From contig NSIL01000005.1 of NCBI GenBank assembly GCA_002737365.1, positions 118,399 to 182,398 of the forward strand: a stretch of DNA of 64,000 nt, given 5' to 3'. How positions within the stretch are numbered: the stretch's first letter is position 1; each line of letters begins with the position of its first letter. Positions 7,580-14,964 of the stretch are shown here, in pieces. This stretch comes from Acidobacterium sp. (GTDB lineage Bacteria > Acidobacteriota > Vicinamibacteria > Vicinamibacterales > UBA2999). The translations under genes and the position numbers were made by a program. A model generated the notes under the pieces. The model searched no databases. It was not told the DNA's origin and saw nothing but the letters and a program-made list of their open reading frames with translations.

Positions 7580-7669
7580 TGCATGCCTCCGAGGGGTCAC
7601 CGGGAGGTGTTGCCATAGAGTATACCTGCCGGCATGACGGTTGCAGTATCAAAAGGCTGGAGTATCCAA

Positions 7670-8293
7670 ATGACAGCAATGTGCACACGAAACAGGTCGC
7701 TTTTCGCCGTCCTCACGGCCCTGGCCGCGTGGATTCTTCCCGGCTTGGGCGTAAATGTGTCCGCGGCGGAGCAGAAACCGGAAGTCCAACGCCTGTTCCA
7801 GTCGGGTGATTACGAGCAGGTCGTGGCGGCATCGCGCGAGGGCGATCCCGCCTCGACCTACCTGGCGGCGCAAGCCCTGCTCAAACTCAACCGGATGGAC
7901 GAGGTAGCGGCAGAGTTCGCGCGACTGAAGGGGAACGGTCCGGCCTGGAGTCTCGTCGGCGAATCGGGCGAGGCGCTCGCCGCCAACGACGCCGGGCGCG
8001 CGACCGAATTGGCGCGCAAGGCCACCGCGGCCGACGGCAACAATCCGTCTGCGTTCTACCAGCTTGGCCTGGCCACGAGCAAAGGCAGCGACTGGGGCGG
8101 CGCGACCGCAGCCTTCAACCAGGCCCTCGCGCTGAAGCCTGACCTCGCCTACGCGCACTACTACGCGGCGCTCGCCGCGCAGCGGCAGCGCCAGTTGCCC
8201 AAGGCCGGCGAACACTTCGAAGCCTTCCTGCGCCTGGCCCCAGAGGCGCCCGAGCGCCAGGCGGTGCAGGCGATCATGCGTAGCCTCAAATAG
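7670..8293 (+). CDS. exported tetratricopeptide-repeat protein
   Basis: A 207-residue protein starting at ATG 7670, which has GGAG seven bases upstream; an ATG at 7634 in frame would add 12 residues in front of the signal peptide. An N-terminal signal sequence (RSLFAVLTALAAWILPGLG, then SAA-EQ as a likely cleavage site) suggests export. The mature part is alpha-helical with TPR pairs, clearest in the last third (PSAFYQLGLATSKGSDWGGA and AYAHYYAALAAQRQ). TPR proteins scaffold protein complexes. It converges on the TamB-TamA fusion and shares a terminator hairpin with it, so a link to envelope assembly is possible but only positional. Confidence 0.75.
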   Translation: MTAMCTRNRSLFAVLTALAAWILPGLGVNVSAAEQKPEVQRLFQSGDYEQVVAASREGDPASTYLAAQALLKLNRMDEVAAEFARLKGNGPAWSLVGESGEALAANDAGRATELARKATAADGNNPSAFYQLGLATSKGSDWGGATAAFNQALALKPDLAYAHYYAALAAQRQRQLPKAGEHFEAFLRLAPEAPERQAVQAIMRSLK

Positions 8294-8343
8294 GCTTGGG
8301 GCTTGGGACTTGGGACTTGATCAAGCCTCAAGCCCCAAGCCTA
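8291..8343. terminator. stop-to-stop inverted heptamer array, bidirectional terminator-like hairpin
   Basis: Arms 8291-8305 and 8329-8343 are perfectly complementary over 15 bp and include both stop codons of the convergent genes. The whole block is built of 7-base units: four direct (GGCTTGG, GGCTTGG, GACTTGG, GACTTGA at 8293-8320) and three inverse (TCAAGCC, TCAAGCC, CCAAGCC at 8321-8341). Position between two convergent genes suggests a bidirectional terminator; there is no T-run. Confidence 0.7.
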
Positions 8344-11300
8344 AAAGATCTGTCCAATCCCGAAGTACCAACGGCCGTCACGCAGGCTGCTGGCGTCGCG
8401 GGTGGTAGCGCTCGGGACGGCCGAAGCGGGAATGCCGAAGTCCACGCGCAGCGTGCCGACGGGCGTGGCGAACCGCAGGCCCGCGCCGTAGCCGACCTTG
8501 ACGTCTTTCCAATTGAACGATTCGTTGAGACCGAGGATGTTGCCGGCGTCGATGAAACTCACCCCGTTCACCCAGCGGTAGATCGGAAAGCGCACTTCCT
8601 GGTTCAGCACCAACAGCGCCTCGCCGCCGAGCGGCAAGCCCTCGACATCGCGCGGCCCCAGGCTGTCTTCACGATAGCCGCGCACGGTCGTGGCGCCACC
8701 GGCCTGGAAGCGGCCATCCAGAAACAGCGGGTCGGGTCCGAACTTCTTGCCCCACTGCGCGCGAGATGCCAAGACGACGCGCCCCAGCGGCACGAACGCG
8801 TACTGCTGCAAGAGCAGCTTGCGATTACGCACGTCAGAGCCCAACCATGACGCCGCGTGATCGATCGACGCGGACGAGAATGTGCCCTTGACCGTCGACA
8901 GCGGATCGTTGCGGCGGTCCCACAGCGCCGCGGTGCTCAGCGTCGCCAGGTTGCTGACAAAGTCGAGCGGCAATGGATCGTAGCCGGGCGCTGGGTCGAA
9001 GGTCCGCGACCGCTCGAAGCGATAGCCATAGACAATCTGCACCCCGCGAGCGCGCCATCGTTGGTCGGCGCTGAAGCCCTGCACGTCGTTGATCGCCAAC
9101 ACCTCCTGCCCGGCATCGTCGCGAAACAAGTCGCGCGAGTAGAACCCGTAGATGCTTGAGCGCGCCCGCCAGCCGAACAGCCGTGAAGTCGCCAGCAACA
9201 CCGTCGCGTCCTGGCGATCGAACTGATACATGCCGAAGGCACTGAAGGTGAGCGCACGCCCAAACAGATTGGGGTTCTTGAGCTCAGCCACCACGCCGGC
9301 ATTCTGCGTGCTCGTGAACTCATCGAGTTCGAGCTGGCGGTCGCCTGCCAGTTGCAAGCCGTAGCGAAACGCCCAGGGCGGGAACTCCTGCACCGCCACG
9401 CGCGCCTTCACCGGCTGCACGCCGTCGACGACCTCGGCTACCGGCACCGGCTGGATGTCGACCAGGCGAAACACGTTGGTGTCGTAGAGCCGTTTGCGCG
9501 CAAGGGCCCACTCGTCGAGGTTCACCGGCGTGCCCAGCTCGAAACGCAGCGCACCGGTCAACACCGAGTTGCGCGTCCGCTCGAGGCCCGTAACCTCGAC
9601 GTCCTGCAGCACCTGCCGGGCCCCTTCGGAAATCGCGAAGGTGAGATGGACGGTGTCGTCCGCAGCCACCTCTGACAGCACTTCGACGTCAGCGGCGTTG
9701 TAGCCGTCGCGACGGTACTGCTGCTCCACCCGAGTCCGCGCCCGATCGACGTTGTCAGCCACGTACGGCGCAGGCGACGGCAGCGCGGCGACGTTCTGGA
9801 TCAACGCCTGGCGGCTCTCAGGCACGCCCGCGAACGTGACGGCGGTGACCTGCGCTCGCGGGCCCTCGACAATGGTGATCGGCAAGACGCCGACGTCACC
9901 CTCGATGGTCAACGGCCCGCCGGTCACCACGGCCTTGAGGTAACCCGCTTCGTTGTAGGCCGTGACCAGGGCGCGCTCCGCGGCAGTGCGGTCGAGCCAG
10001 GCGTCCACGGCCAGACCCTGCGCGGTGACCTCTGCCAGCAGCGCGCTACCGGCCAACGCCTGGTTGCCGGTGATGCGAATCTCGCGGCCGCTGACCGGCA
10101 CACCTGAAGTGACGTCGATCCGCAATTTTTTGGTGCCTTCAACGGTGCGGTCGACCGTGCCGACGACCACGCTCCCCAGCTCGTTGGTCGAGACCAGGTA
10201 GAGCCGCACCCGGTGGGTCAAATCGTCGATCAGGAACTGGTCGAACACGTTGCGGTGCCACGCCTCTTCGAGTTCGGCTGTCAGGCTGGCCGGCAAGGTG
10301 ATGCCGGCGACGTCGAGCACGGTGCGGGGGCCGCGATCCACCGTGTACTCGAGTGTCACGGTGCCGTCGGGCAACTCGACCCGGCGGGTCCTGGCCCGCG
10401 CCTGAAAATATCCCTGAGCCTTGAAACGATCGCGCACCCGGTCCACATCGCGCTGCAACACCAGGAAGTCAAAGTTGTCGCCGGGATCGAGCTTGAGTTG
10501 GCCGCGGACTTCCTGCTCGATGGCGGGTTCAACGCCGGCGAACGTGATCGCCGAGACTCTCGGTTTGACCCGCAGTTCGGCGGGCAACTTGCTGACGCCG
10601 CCGCCAAAAGTCACCTGGTGCCGAATGCCGATGCTGACGGTGTCGTCGTCGCGCGACACCGCCCGCACTTCGATGACCGGCGTCAGGAAGTAGCTGATGA
10701 TGAAGGTGGTGTTGCCGCTCTCGCGCAGGTTCTGCGAGATCGTGAATTCGACCTGGCGGCTCAGGCGTTTCGACAGCGTGAGGCGGGTGGTCGGGTCGCT
10801 GCCGTTGCTGCCAATCGCCGAGGGGTCGTCGCGAAAGTCGGGATCCGCGAAGTCACCGCGCTCAACGCGGAACGAATCCAGGCCAATCGCGCGGCCGGTC
10901 ACGCCGAGCAAGTCGGCCGACAGCAGCGTCAGCGCGGTATTGCCGTTGGCCTCACCTACCAGTTCAGACGCCAACTCTTCCGGCGTCTTCGAACCGTCGT
11001 CCGAGGTCAGGTCGATGGTGGGCCGCTCGAGCGTGCCTGACAGCGTCATGATCGCGTTGCCGCGGCTGCCGCTGAGCGGTGCATCGGCGACGATGTTGAA
11101 CTCGGGGCTGATGCGGCGGAGATCGGTGAACGAGATGTCGCCGCGGGTGATCCGGAAGGTGCGGCCGGCCAGGAACATCTCGCCACCTTCGCGCAGCGTG
11201 ATGCGTCCGTCCATGCCCGGCGCGGCAGCGGTGCCGGTCAGGCGGACGTTGGCTCCCGCAGCGAGGCGGCCGTAATTGTTGTCCACGGTCACGTCGTCGC

Positions 11301-14300
11301 TCGTGGTCACGGCGAGGTTCAAGCGGATGCGCTCGAGGTAGGGCCGTTGCTGGGTCGGCGACACCGGCAGGGTGGCGCGCCGGGCCAGCGACGCGATCGT
11401 GATGGTCTCCGTGTAGGAGCTCTGCACCACGCGAATATCGCCGGTCACGGTCGGGCCCTTCGGGTCGGGCCGGAAGGTGACCAGCGCATCGAGTTCACTG
11501 CGCAGGCCGTCGATCAACTCGATCGCGACGCCTTGTGCCTGGATGTTGACCGTGCCTTCAATGGCATCGACCCCGGCGACCTGCAACGAGCCGTCGAGGG
11601 CGAGCGTGCCGCCATTGGCCAGCCCGCGGATGCCGTCGAGTACTACGCGCTGGCCGTCGAGCACGATCGGGCCATTCAAGTCCGACAGCACCAACCGCGG
11701 TTCCGCGACCGCGATCTCCGCGTCCTTCAGCATGATCTCGCCGTCGAACAACGGGCGCGACACGGTGCCGGTGATCAGAGTGTTGAGGTTGGCGCCGCCG
11801 TCGAAGGCGAGCGTAGTGGTGAACGCCGACAGCACGCGCAGGTCGATCAGGCCCTGCACCGACAGGTCGAGCGGCGGGTCCTCCTGCGCAAAGCCGATCG
11901 AGCCGCCAATCACCAGCGGGTGGTGGGCCACCAACCACGAGATCTCGGCGACCGCTAATGAGCCGCGCGCAAACTCAACCTGCGACGGCCGCTGCTGTTC
12001 AACGGGGATGCCCGAGAACGTAAACTCCGCCGCATCGACGGTCAACTCGCCGGTGATTGCCGCCAGTTCGAGGACTGGCACCTGGGCGCGGGCGGTCGCG
12101 GCAAAGCGGCCCACCACCCCCCCGCTGGCGACATCGCCGGACAGGCGCGAAACGGTCAGCGACTCGCCTTGCAAGACGCCATCCACGTGCAGGTTCGTGA
12201 CCGCCTGTGGTCCGCCGCCCCAGTTGAACGTGCCGGCCTTGAGCGACAGCGTGGCGAGCGTCCCGGTACGGGTGCCGTTTGAGCGGAGGCCCACCGACAG
12301 CGCGCCGGTGCCATCGATCGTCACCGGCACGCCAAGCGCGCGGCCCAGGCGCAGGGCATCCCGGAAGTCGCCGGCGTAATGCCCCTGGAACACGCCATCG
12401 AGTCGCGGGTTCCATTCACCCGATGCCGTCAGGCGTCCAGAGCCGATGCGGAGGTTCAGGTCTGTCAGCGTCACTTCGTCCCCGCGCAACGCGAGGTGGG
12501 CCGGCGCATGCAAGGTGACCGGCACGCCGCCAATGCCGGCATCGAGTTCGGTGAGATTGACGATGGCGACGCGGTCGCGCGTGTCGGCGAGCCGGCCCGA
12601 GGCGGTGATGGTGCCGTTGGCAAATCCCCGGATCTCGGCTTCAACCGCGTCGATCAATGGTGACAGCCGCGCCAGCTCAAGCCGATCAAGCACCGCGGTC
12701 GCCCGGTAGTCGTACGGCGATGCCGTGGCGACGTCGGCGTTGACCAGCGCGCCGATCGAGGGCAACCGCGCGACCACGCGTGCCTGGTCGCCCATCAACT
12801 CCGCCGTCAGTTCGCCTGAGCCGATCAGCGTCCCGGCTTCACCGCCGCTCAGCGCAAAGTCCACGCGCGCGTGGCCGCGTGGTTGCGCCGTGGTGCCCGC
12901 GCCCTCGAACTGCATCGAGAACAAGGCCTGCGTGTCGTTCGGGGCGAGCACGGTGCCCTGCCACGACAGCCGATCACCTTTCAGGCTGGCGGTGTAGGCG
13001 CCGGTCTCCCAAGCGTAGCGAACCCGGCCATCGAGAAACCCGGGGCCCTGGTGCAACTCGAGCGACGTGACATCAATGGCGTTGGCGGTCACCATGGCCT
13101 TGGCGTTGGCGCGGTCGAGCGACTGCCCTGCCCACGTCAGCGCCGAACCGGTGATGGTGGTGTCGAGCGTGTAGACATCGAACGTACCGCCGACCGTGGC
13201 GGCGACCTGCAGCGGGCCGATGACACGCCACGCCTCGGGCATGTCACTTTGCAGTTCCTCGGCGTGCGGCGCCTCAACGGTGAAGTGGCCGGTCCATTTC
13301 TCAGCCGTGAGGTCGGCCACGGCCTCGCCCTTCATCGTCGCGGTCCCGCGATGCACGGCGAGGTCGGTGATGTCGGCGCGGCGGGTGTCGGCAACGACGT
13401 GGGCCGAGGCGCGCACGCGGCCGAGCAGCGGCACATCCACCGCATCGCCGGAGACGCGCGTGTCCACTTGCGGAAACTGGTAGGAACCCGCCAGGGTCAT
13501 CGGCAAGTCGAGGGCGCCGTGAACCTCGGCGGCGATCTCAGGCACGGGAAAGCCAAGCAACGCCAGGCCGCGCGAGGCCTCGGCGACATCGCTCACGCGC
13601 GCCCGCGCCGGCCCGGTCATCGTCGACAGGAGCGCCGAGTCGTGGTTGATACGGCCCGACAGGCGGCCGGCGAACGTAAACGCGGGAAAGCGATGGCCGT
13701 GATCGAACTGGTAGTGGTCGCCGACGACCGTTGCCCGCACGGCGCCGGTCATCGGCACGTGCCTCGGCGTGGTGCGACCCGTCGAGCGGTTGGTGATCAC
13801 GTAACGCCGCGGCTCGCTGAACTCGAACGTGCCGCTGCCGTCGAAGCCGGCGGCAATCGCCTGCGGGCTGACGTTCATCATGTCGAGCGCGGTCTGCGCG
13901 TCGAGCGCCTGCCATGACGCCGCGGCTGTGCTGAGCGACGAGTTGCCCCACGGCACATTGACGTCGGCGCGGATCTCGCCGCCCGATCGCGGCGTGATGA
14001 GCAACTGCGTGCCGGAGAACGACTCGAATGTCGCGAGCACCGGACCAGCCAGCGTGAGGTCACGCTCGCGGCCAACGGCCAGCGTGCGGCTGGTCGCCTG
14101 AAGCGCGGTCACGAAGTTGCTCCCGGGCCCCTTGATTGTGCCGTCGATGGCGACCACGCCGCTCACCGGCACGGGAGGAGGAGGCACCCACCTCGTGGCG
14201 TGCGCGAGGTCGACCGTGCCTTTGAGTGCGAGCTCCAGGTTCGGCGAATCGAGCACGCGATGAATCTGTCCGGTCAGGACCACGTTCAGTTCCGACGACA

Positions 14301-14964
14301 TCAGGCGCGCCTCGGCGAGCGTCACGTCGGAACCGTCGAACGTCATCACGGTCTCGAACGGCGCGATCGTCATGGTGCGCTCGCGCAGGCGGACGGCGAG
14401 CGGGCCGCGGACCGCAAAGGCACCTTGTGCGCCGAGCGCGGAATCGACGAGCGCCGACTCGATCCGCGGAATGGTGACGCCCCAGTCACGCGCCGCATCA
14501 ACGTACTGCAGGTCGAGTCCGCGTAGGGTGAGGCTGCGGATGTCGAGACGCCGAGGCGTGAGCGACGTCGGCTGCGACGATCCCGACGGCAGGTTCACCA
14601 CGCCGTTCGCGTCGCGATGGATGTCCACCACGCCGCCTTCAATCGCGAGGTGATCGATGGCGAAAGGGCCGCGCAGCGCCATCCATGGCAGCTGGACGTC
14701 GAGACGGCTGGCGACCAGGAACGGCCGGTCGTCGTGCCCCTTGGCCGCGAGCCGGACGTCGGTGAGGGTGATGCGGCGGGTGAACGCGTTGTAGCCGAGA
14801 TCGGTCGCGCGGAGTGTCAGGTCAAAGCGGGTCACAAAATCGGTCGCCCACGCCAGTGCCCGGTGGCGCGCCCACGGCGTGTGGATCAGCACCAGGGCCA
14901 CCAATGCGGTGCCGGCAGCCACCGCTGCCGGAAGAACCACCACTCGCCGCACCCAAACCCTCAC
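8341..14964 (-). CDS. TamB-TamA fusion: AsmA/TamB-like translocation protein fused to POTRA domains and Omp85 barrel
   Basis: A single uninterrupted 2207-residue frame. One N-terminal transmembrane anchor (about residues 5-28) is followed by about 1100 residues of repetitive beta-rich AsmA/TamB-like sequence. A TamB C-terminal (DUF490) domain spans about 1135-1455, ending in FIISYFLTPVIEVRAVSRDD. Several POTRA-like units follow at about 1465-1860 (for example VSAITFAGVEPAIEQEV, VTAVTFAGVP, QDVEVTGLERTRNSVL). An Omp85 surface-antigen barrel covers about 1865-2207, with VRGYREDSLGPRD near 2095 as the conserved (V/I)RGY motif. In Enterobacteria TamA and TamB are separate: TamA is the outer-membrane barrel and TamB spans the periplasm from the inner membrane, its C-terminus contacting TamA POTRA. 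The fusion order matches that contact. Likely role: envelope assembly or lipid transport between membranes. Confidence 0.88.
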   Translation of the reverse strand: MRVWVRRVVVLPAAVAAGTALVALVLIHTPWARHRALAWATDFVTRFDLTLRATDLGYNAFTRRITLTDVRLAAKGHDDRPFLVASRLDVQLPWMALRGPFAIDHLAIEGGVVDIHRDANGVVNLPSGSSQPTSLTPRRLDIRSLTLRGLDLQYVDAARDWGVTIPRIESALVDSALGAQGAFAVRGPLAVRLRERTMTIAPFETVMTFDGSDVTLAEARLMSSELNVVLTGQIHRVLDSPNLELALKGTVDLAHATRWVPPPPVPVSGVVAIDGTIKGPGSNFVTALQATSRTLAVGRERDLTLAGPVLATFESFSGTQLLITPRSGGEIRADVNVPWGNSSLSTAAASWQALDAQTALDMMNVSPQAIAAGFDGSGTFEFSEPRRYVITNRSTGRTTPRHVPMTGAVRATVVGDHYQFDHGHRFPAFTFAGRLSGRINHDSALLSTMTGPARARVSDVAEASRGLALLGFPVPEIAAEVHGALDLPMTLAGSYQFPQVDTRVSGDAVDVPLLGRVRASAHVVADTRRADITDLAVHRGTATMKGEAVADLTAEKWTGHFTVEAPHAEELQSDMPEAWRVIGPLQVAATVGGTFDVYTLDTTITGSALTWAGQSLDRANAKAMVTANAIDVTSLELHQGPGFLDGRVRYAWETGAYTASLKGDRLSWQGTVLAPNDTQALFSMQFEGAGTTAQPRGHARVDFALSGGEAGTLIGSGELTAELMGDQARVVARLPSIGALVNADVATASPYDYRATAVLDRLELARLSPLIDAVEAEIRGFANGTITASGRLADTRDRVAIVNLTELDAGIGGVPVTLHAPAHLALRGDEVTLTDLNLRIGSGRLTASGEWNPRLDGVFQGHYAGDFRDALRLGRALGVPVTIDGTGALSVGLRSNGTRTGTLATLSLKAGTFNWGGGPQAVTNLHVDGVLQGESLTVSRLSGDVASGGVVGRFAATARAQVPVLELAAITGELTVDAAEFTFSGIPVEQQRPSQVEFARGSLAVAEISWLVAHHPLVIGGSIGFAQEDPPLDLSVQGLIDLRVLSAFTTTLAFDGGANLNTLITGTVSRPLFDGEIMLKDAEIAVAEPRLVLSDLNGPIVLDGQRVVLDGIRGLANGGTLALDGSLQVAGVDAIEGTVNIQAQGVAIELIDGLRSELDALVTFRPDPKGPTVTGDIRVVQSSYTETITIASLARRATLPVSPTQQRPYLERIRLNLAVTTSDDVTVDNNYGRLAAGANVRLTGTAAAPGMDGRITLREGGEMFLAGRTFRITRGDISFTDLRRISPEFNIVADAPLSGSRGNAIMTLSGTLERPTIDLTSDDGSKTPEELASELVGEANGNTALTLLSADLLGVTGRAIGLDSFRVERGDFADPDFRDDPSAIGSNGSDPTTRLTLSKRLSRQVEFTISQNLRESGNTTFIISYFLTPVIEVRAVSRDDDTVSIGIRHQVTFGGGVSKLPAELRVKPRVSAITFAGVEPAIEQEVRGQLKLDPGDNFDFLVLQRDVDRVRDRFKAQGYFQARARTRRVELPDGTVTLEYTVDRGPRTVLDVAGITLPASLTAELEEAWHRNVFDQFLIDDLTHRVRLYLVSTNELGSVVVGTVDRTVEGTKKLRIDVTSGVPVSGREIRITGNQALAGSALLAEVTAQGLAVDAWLDRTAAERALVTAYNEAGYLKAVVTGGPLTIEGDVGVLPITIVEGPRAQVTAVTFAGVPESRQALIQNVAALPSPAPYVADNVDRARTRVEQQYRRDGYNAADVEVLSEVAADDTVHLTFAISEGARQVLQDVEVTGLERTRNSVLTGALRFELGTPVNLDEWALARKRLYDTNVFRLVDIQPVPVAEVVDGVQPVKARVAVQEFPPWAFRYGLQLAGDRQLELDEFTSTQNAGVVAELKNPNLFGRALTFSAFGMYQFDRQDATVLLATSRLFGWRARSSIYGFYSRDLFRDDAGQEVLAINDVQGFSADQRWRARGVQIVYGYRFERSRTFDPAPGYDPLPLDFVSNLATLSTAALWDRRNDPLSTVKGTFSSASIDHAASWLGSDVRNRKLLLQQYAFVPLGRVVLASRAQWGKKFGPDPLFLDGRFQAGGATTVRGYREDSLGPRDVEGLPLGGEALLVLNQEVRFPIYRWVNGVSFIDAGNILGLNESFNWKDVKVGYGAGLRFATPVGTLRVDFGIPASAVPSATTRDASSLRDGRWYFGIGQIF

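Follow-up and report, generated by a model that had tools for sequence, protein, structure and literature searches.

The window, the whole 64,000-nucleotide stretch of DNA analysed here, carries on its minus strand a single open frame (8341-14964) that starts with GTG and encodes 2,207 amino acids. The chain runs from an inner-membrane anchor through a TamB body, a TamB C-terminal domain and a short linker to POTRA domains and an Omp85 barrel. The features of the locus are as follows.

8341..14964, minus strand: fused tamB-omp85 gene, 2207 aa (open reading frame, Pfam, equivalent frame in relatives)
14884..14955, minus strand: predicted N-terminal inner-membrane anchor helix, residues 4-27 (AlphaFold2 helix and hydrophobic maximum)
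11626..14829, minus strand: TamB/AsmA-like beta-strand body, residues 46-1113 (AlphaFold2 model of 1-1190, mean pLDDT 86.8)
10645..11625, minus strand: TamB domain PF04357 (DUF490), residues 1114-1440 (E 1.4e-28)
10606..10797, minus strand: TamB C-terminal barrel-like strands (pseudo-substrate), residues 1390-1453, ending RH...FG (five model strands)
10561..10605, minus strand: short hydrophilic linker, residues 1454-1468 (14-28 aa in 59 fused rows; low conservation)
9385..10560, minus strand: five POTRA domains, residues 1469-1860 (four Pfam stretches, model strands and helices, alignment to BamA 9mge)
8344..9384, minus strand: Omp85 16-strand barrel, residues 1861-2207 (PF01103, E 1.2e-34; 16 model strands; TamA 8us1)
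8674..8685, minus strand: VRGY motif of the Omp85 barrel, residues 2094-2097 (sequence)
7634..8293, plus strand: TPR protein gene with a signal-peptide-like start, judged by eye (convergent with the fused gene; in 14/20 loci)

Pfam searches placed the TamB domain at residues 1114-1440 (100.7 bits against a cut-off of 22.4), POTRA domains in four stretches (E 1.6e-24, the best spanning 1468-1545) and Omp85 at 1899-2207, all above cut-off within the 2,207-residue frame; no MCE family was found at E values up to 1. The N-terminus holds the only strongly hydrophobic segment (maximum at residue 9, mean 2.57), and a hydrophobicity scan found no 19-residue window above 1.6 starting past residue 120. 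VRGY, which we take to be the known Omp85 barrel motif, lies at residues 2094-2097, and its arginine (R2095) is invariant across 58 aligned fused rows. The protein thus combines the PF01103 barrel, POTRA domains and VRGY of the Omp85 superfamily with the PF04357 domain and N-terminal signal anchor of the TamB family, the latter pair seen in the sequence and the predicted helix. One TamB-family trait is missing: DUF490 is not at the extreme C-terminus, as the linker, POTRAs and barrel, together about 750 residues, come after it. The original prediction had read an anchor, a TamB/AsmA beta-rich part, DUF490, POTRAs and an Omp85 barrel with VRGY in one frame, and the open reading frame, Pfam matches and AlphaFold2 models bear it out. 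The adjacent TPR-repeat gene lies tail to tail with the fused gene, a pairing kept in 14 of 20 loci, among which identity of the TPR protein falls to around 36%.

We modelled the protein with AlphaFold2 as two separate halves. The N-terminal half (residues 1-1190; mean pLDDT 86.8, pTM 0.55) was built from a 52-row alignment of fused proteins that left out L100, L070, L105, L106, L092 and L084 by script and L102 by hand, and the C-terminal half (residues 1041-2207; mean pLDDT 81.1, pTM 0.60) from a 58-row alignment that left out only L100. The N-terminal model shows a helix at residues 4-27, a second helix and then near-continuous beta strands up to the TamB C-terminal part. It matched an N-terminal fragment of Vps13 (Z 8.2), LPD-3 (Z 8.6) and TamB 9xdd (Z 7.3). 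Vps13 and LPD-3 are lipid-bridge proteins; because outer-membrane porins and receptors match the model equally well (Z up to 9.4), these predicted similarities are at most compatible with a lipid groove. The C-terminal model contains five barrel-like strands (approximately 1394-1453), the linker, five POTRAs, as counted from the strands and helices of the model, and 16 barrel strands. Its barrel and last three POTRAs (model residues 584-1166) align with TamA 8us1 (Z 23.1, 517 residues, rmsd 5.3), and its barrel and all five POTRAs (model residues 428-1167) with BamA 9mge (Z 22.0, 685 residues, rmsd 14.2). BamA chains were the best Foldseek matches of this half; TamB chains were absent from the 50 structure matches listed, which does not count against them. 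Three of these 50 rows start within the TamB strands (model residue 365-366) and match the first barrel strand of BamA, which hints weakly that a TamB strand may lie near the barrel gate in the model.

Conservation and spread of the join

We assembled 59 fused frames, comprising the window protein and 58 others. Twenty of the others align with it over their full length, and a profile check of the remaining 38 recovered the TamB domain, POTRAs and barrel, in that order and in a single frame, in 37. In the exception, L100 (G252:C205), the barrel sits in a neighbouring frame, reflecting a frameshift that is either genuine or an assembly fault. An antisense frame, L048_1885, was excluded from all fused sets. 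L070 (G056:C28, 1378-10266) is a fused frame of 2,962 aa with about 850 residues ahead of its TamB N-terminal match, a stretch that may come from a start called too early or from a further joined part; L167 (G212:C51, 2204-7771), fused and 1,855 aa long, has a single short POTRA-profile stretch ahead of its barrel.

Across the 59 rows, 14-28 residues (median 17) separate the last TamB strand from POTRA1. That strand carries the pattern R-H-x-x-x-F-G (R in 48/59, H in 43/59, F in 42/59 and G in 48/59), and conservation of the TamB C-terminal helix and strands (1341-1455) is close to that of the barrel (0.428 versus 0.439). The linker itself (1456-1468) had the lowest conservation of the segments measured, at 0.25. 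Preceded by a well-kept Phe-Gly-Gly, it often contains Pro, Ala and Arg, and its body had no common motif beyond Gly residues in the fused rows. Eight of the nine split TamB proteins that we looked at end in Phe; because they do so and the fused strand ends in R-H-x-x-x-F-G, a short linker seems to have been added after the former TamB C-terminus, with loss of the signal-peptide-like start of the split Omp85. No hydrophobic segment was found at the junction in the 59 rows (best 19-residue mean 1.07). An anchor-like hydrophobic segment lies within the first 138 residues in 51 of the 59, at a mark of 1.6; among the eight rows below the mark, several have overlong or cut starts, two fall just under it, and L049, L070 and L106 have an anchor-like segment further inside.

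Within the family of the source genome, at least 28 of 43 genomes carry Omp85 in a frame of 2,201-2,452 aa, as judged with an Omp85 query. A 21-row junction profile gave best matches of E 4.5e-70 or better in 38 of the 43, some of them cut by contig ends, and no strong match in the other five (G014, G028, G030, G032 and G041). A broader profile of 461 positions, built from 51 of the 59 rows after eight near-copies were left out, matched stop-free over nearly its whole length in 83 of 396 phylum genomes. Six further genomes gave partial matches, five of which start within 14 bases of a contig end, and five more were accepted from other hits and inspection of the DNA (one, G413, is cut by its contig). 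Compiled by hand from matches down to E 2.4e-58, the fusion is present in at least 94 of the 396 sampled phylum genomes, from 37 families, counting G252 despite the neighbouring-frame barrel of L100. One of these, G247, is a one-contig genome of 6.0 Mb with no TamB match other than the fused protein. Many next-ranked matches of the broader profile are unfused TamB proteins that end near profile position 250-267, often with an internal stop codon. Among the matches listed, the fusion was not found in 302 of the 396 phylum genomes, nor in five of the 43 family genomes, so some lineages do without it. A scan of a genome collection with one short pattern yielded 30 loci. Of these, 26 lie in records titled Acidobacteria/Acidobacteriota, Candidatus Sulfopaludibacter or Candidatus Aminicenantes, and for the other four (L114, L115, L119 and L125, from three bins) the record titles read Acidimicrobiia or Cyanobacteria, which looks wrong.

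That an assembly or sequencing error joined two genes has a negligible chance of being right: the named relatives found are metagenome bins, but the fusion recurs in at least 94 of 396 genomes, a one-contig genome included, with conserved residues on either side of the junction, and the survey of relatives refutes an artefact for the family as a whole. The original prediction had singled out close relatives with two genes and a stop at this point as one finding that would undo it; the relatives examined keep an unbroken frame, except L100, and the survey of Acidobacteriota that it called for turned up split pairs as well as fusions. A fusion unique to the source genome is likewise rejected by the same-frame relatives. 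Because the identical join occurs in many distant relatives, the fusion is, on this sequence comparison, real and old.

Split relatives and identity of the barrel half

Two TamB matches and four Omp85 matches, the fused gene included, were found in the source genome (3.05 Mb, 97% complete). The separate bamA that the original prediction had asked about is present on contig C1, where a canonical BamA scores 462.3 bits with TIGR03303 (cut-off 297.15). Contig C34 holds an unfused TamB/Omp85 pair, in which TamB ends at L007:7889, its stop and the Omp85 ATG overlap in TGATG, and the Omp85 has a signal-peptide-like start, judged by eye. A short Omp85 of 419 aa on contig C45 (L009, 4902-6161) has a BamA-like N-terminal stretch (29-106) and a barrel part at its end.

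In 21 of the 25 split loci read, Omp85 comes directly after TamB, and this order of most loci is the one able to give the fusion by loss of a stop. The other four, all of family f26, had no TamB upstream of Omp85 in the stretch examined; in one of them, G260, a TamB match lies on the same strand as the Omp85 match, downstream of it. Heinz et al. 2015 (PMC4494059) report an operon with the order BamA-TamB and a second BamA in Acidobacteria, whereas the order here is TamB-Omp85 and theirs is hinted at only in f26. Some family genomes have a further Omp85 in a frame of approximately 620-720 aa (L010, L012, L013, L014 and L032, and G017 at C12:78596-83929, minus strand); in G017 it precedes another TamB, as tamA precedes tamB in E. 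coli. In 40 fused genomes picked by hand, leaning to genomes with few matches, the fused protein is the only TamB match in 17, which is not to be read as a rate, and at least one further Omp85 match is present in all 40. In those 17 genomes the two-protein TAM seems, from these matches, to have been replaced, with another Omp85 remaining.

Quick trees were used to compare the fused and split proteins. The nearest relatives of both fused halves, among those tested, are unfused TamB and Omp85 pairs of the phylum. In a first TamB-domain tree (78 phylum rows, without E. coli), the fused and split states need one change. A second tree with later loci added (74 rows, excluding E. coli TamB, L100 and L173 and thinned of near-copies) still separates most fused and split proteins and needs three changes, of which well-supported branches force at least two. 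The fused L163 (2,275 aa) groups with the split L161 and L176 (support 99), and the fused L162 (G448:C29, 1151-8353; 2,400 aa) falls among split TamB rows (support 86). L162 also has additional POTRA-profile matches ahead of the usual stretch. A single origin of all fusions was dropped once the added loci gave three changes with at least two forced. Because a fused protein, L163, sits inside a split group, the joining probably happened at least twice, and a split ancestor with two or more fusions appears to fit L163 best.

The original prediction had named the two halves TamB and TamA. Covalent joining of TamB to an Omp85 stands, and 'TamA' proved too narrow by POTRA number, profile scores and tree position. 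TamA has three POTRAs (PMC4104836; PMC4525385), and the predicted model and BamA alignment give five. Against NCBIfam models, the barrel half scores higher as BamA (TIGR03303, 195 bits, cut-off 297.15) than as TamA (NF047950, 71.2 bits, cut-off 625), with both scores below cut-off. We built an Omp85 tree from 96 of 112 rows, leaving out eight fused and six BamA-size near-copies, a cut fused copy (L020) and a fragment (L023); L100 lay outside the 112-row set. Its labels BAM and X640 were assigned by row length rather than by a family test, except for the source genome's BamA, and its label SPL also takes in four loci without a visible upstream TamB. Fused and split barrels together form one clade (support 99), separate from the BamA clade (support 100), so the barrel half does not group with the canonical BamA of its own genome. 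The fused rows lie on one side of a branch with a support of only 58, and E. coli TamA has a long branch and an unsure placement. A plain TamA label is rejected on the five POTRAs, the scores and the place with TamB-linked Omp85 proteins; the barrel half is not strictly TamA and belongs to the phylum's TamB-linked Omp85 clade.

A putative one-chain TAM

We consider it reasonably likely that the fused protein is a one-chain TAM derived from joined tamB and omp85 genes. It would span the periplasm as a bridge that already contains its own barrel and would carry lipids, outer-membrane proteins or both. As modelled, the N-terminal helix would hold the protein in the inner membrane, the TamB part would cross the periplasm as a long beta groove, and the Omp85 part would be fixed in the outer membrane. 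The gene would have arisen from adjacent tamB and omp85 of a C34-like operon, with loss of the Omp85 signal peptide, a direction that we infer. A transport function is suggested by analogy with E. coli TamB, in whose groove lipid-like density was described that its authors consider likely to be amphipol (PMC12800296). The chain would stay unprocessed, and its conserved TamB end strand, by the same analogy, would still pair with an Omp85 gate; the kept R-H-x-x-x-F-G suggests that this pairing may still be used.

One of two states described for E. coli TamAB has the final strand of TamB paired with strand 1 of the barrel, and POTRAs 1-3 contact upstream parts of TamB (PMC12800296); deletion of TamA POTRA1 abolishes TamB binding (PMC4525385). 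The original prediction saw in the fusion a covalent version of the known junction, in the matching order. The TamB C-terminus and the POTRAs are indeed joined in that order, but the known contact is not simply copied, because the E. coli strand meets the barrel and here POTRA1 follows within 14-28 residues. Because the linker is short, the end strand would reach its own gate only with the POTRA arm folded back toward the membrane, and would otherwise pair with a neighbour or stay near POTRA1; both contacts in one chain would thus need a bent-back arm or a partner molecule. In Borrelia a TamB-BamA pair was modelled as in E. coli, with POTRA1 near POTRA5 (PMC13382580). The accompanying claim that the fusion rules out free exchange of the barrel partner is too strong, as one molecule could contact another and three further Omp85 matches occur in the genome.

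A somewhat unlikely alternative is that the protein acts mainly to insert outer-membrane proteins, as a second BamA whose substrates are guided by the attached TamB, rather than as a lipid bridge. Five POTRAs and the better score to BamA than to TamA fit such a role, as do the Borrelia models in which TamB completes the BamA barrel (PMC13382580) and the second BamA in an operon with TamB described for Acidobacteria (PMC4494059). The housekeeping insertase nevertheless looks separate, given the canonical BamA of the source genome and the further Omp85 match in every hand-picked fused genome, and the insertase and lipid-bridge roles are not mutually exclusive.

We judge it improbable that cleavage in the linker follows export and yields ordinary separate TamB and Omp85 in equal amounts. 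The poor conservation, length and frequent Pro, Ala and Arg of the linker would suit cleavage, and the Phe-Gly-Gly ahead of it could be a cut site, or equally a hinge. Two points speak against cutting, neither of them decisive: the linker body shares only Gly residues, and separate genes already give a tightly linked pair, leaving little to gain, yet the fusion probably arose at least twice. It is also doubtful that the working unit is a ring or pair of fused molecules, each pairing its end strand with the barrel of the next. Such swapping would reconcile a linker of at most 28 residues in all 59 rows with a strand that in E. coli contacts the barrel. The closed POTRA ring predicted for Borrelia BamA would, however, let the strand reach its own gate, and the three structure-match rows that run from the TamB strands to the first BamA barrel strand point, weakly, the same way.

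A stronger form of the one-chain TAM has slightly less than an even chance of being right. It holds that the uncut chain is integral to both membranes, with a continuous lipid groove and an end strand that completes or gates its own barrel. The protein would then be a self-contained lipid bridge fixed through the cell wall, which would have evolved at least twice in the phylum and replaced the two-protein TAM in several lineages.

Comparison with known systems

Like the TamA-TamB of Proteobacteria (E. coli, PDB 9xdc/9xdd), the fused protein has a TamB anchor, a beta groove, C-terminal barrel-like strands and an Omp85 with POTRAs. The E. coli TAM differs in consisting of two proteins, encoded tamA then tamB, with three POTRAs, whereas the fused protein is one chain with TamB first and five POTRAs. 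The unfused pair of the phylum, as on C34, likewise differs in having two genes and an Omp85 with its own signal-peptide-like start. In the hybrid BAM-TAM of Borrelia burgdorferi (PMC13382580), TamB also works with a five-POTRA Omp85; there, unlike in the fused chain, the proteins are separate and the partner is BamA itself, with no TamA. The long MlaD of Veillonella parvula (PMC10665443) has been proposed to lie as one polypeptide in both membranes and to form a lipid bridge with an outer-membrane barrel, as envisaged here, but it is an MCE-domain system and the fused protein has no MCE match. No description of a TamB-Omp85 fusion was found in open-licence PubMed Central among the papers listed, as judged from titles and abstract openings. 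The words 'fusion' and 'fused' are absent from the available text of Heinz et al. 2015 (PMC4494059), whose operon corresponds to the split state. The fused protein can be described as a covalent TAM, with the long MlaD of Veillonella as the closest idea.

Studies of how TamB docks to the outer membrane, with its end strand in an Omp85 gate or on the POTRAs, usually rely on complexes of two proteins. In the fused protein TamB and Omp85 would have a set 1:1 stoichiometry as long as the chain is not cut, and any docking model must keep within the reach of the leash of 14-28 residues to POTRA1 that all 59 fused rows share. Lineages with no TamB match besides the fused protein (17 of the 40 hand-picked genomes) suggest that a partner-switching TamB is not needed there. 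The fused protein would be a second candidate, besides the long MlaD, for a single chain anchored in both membranes.
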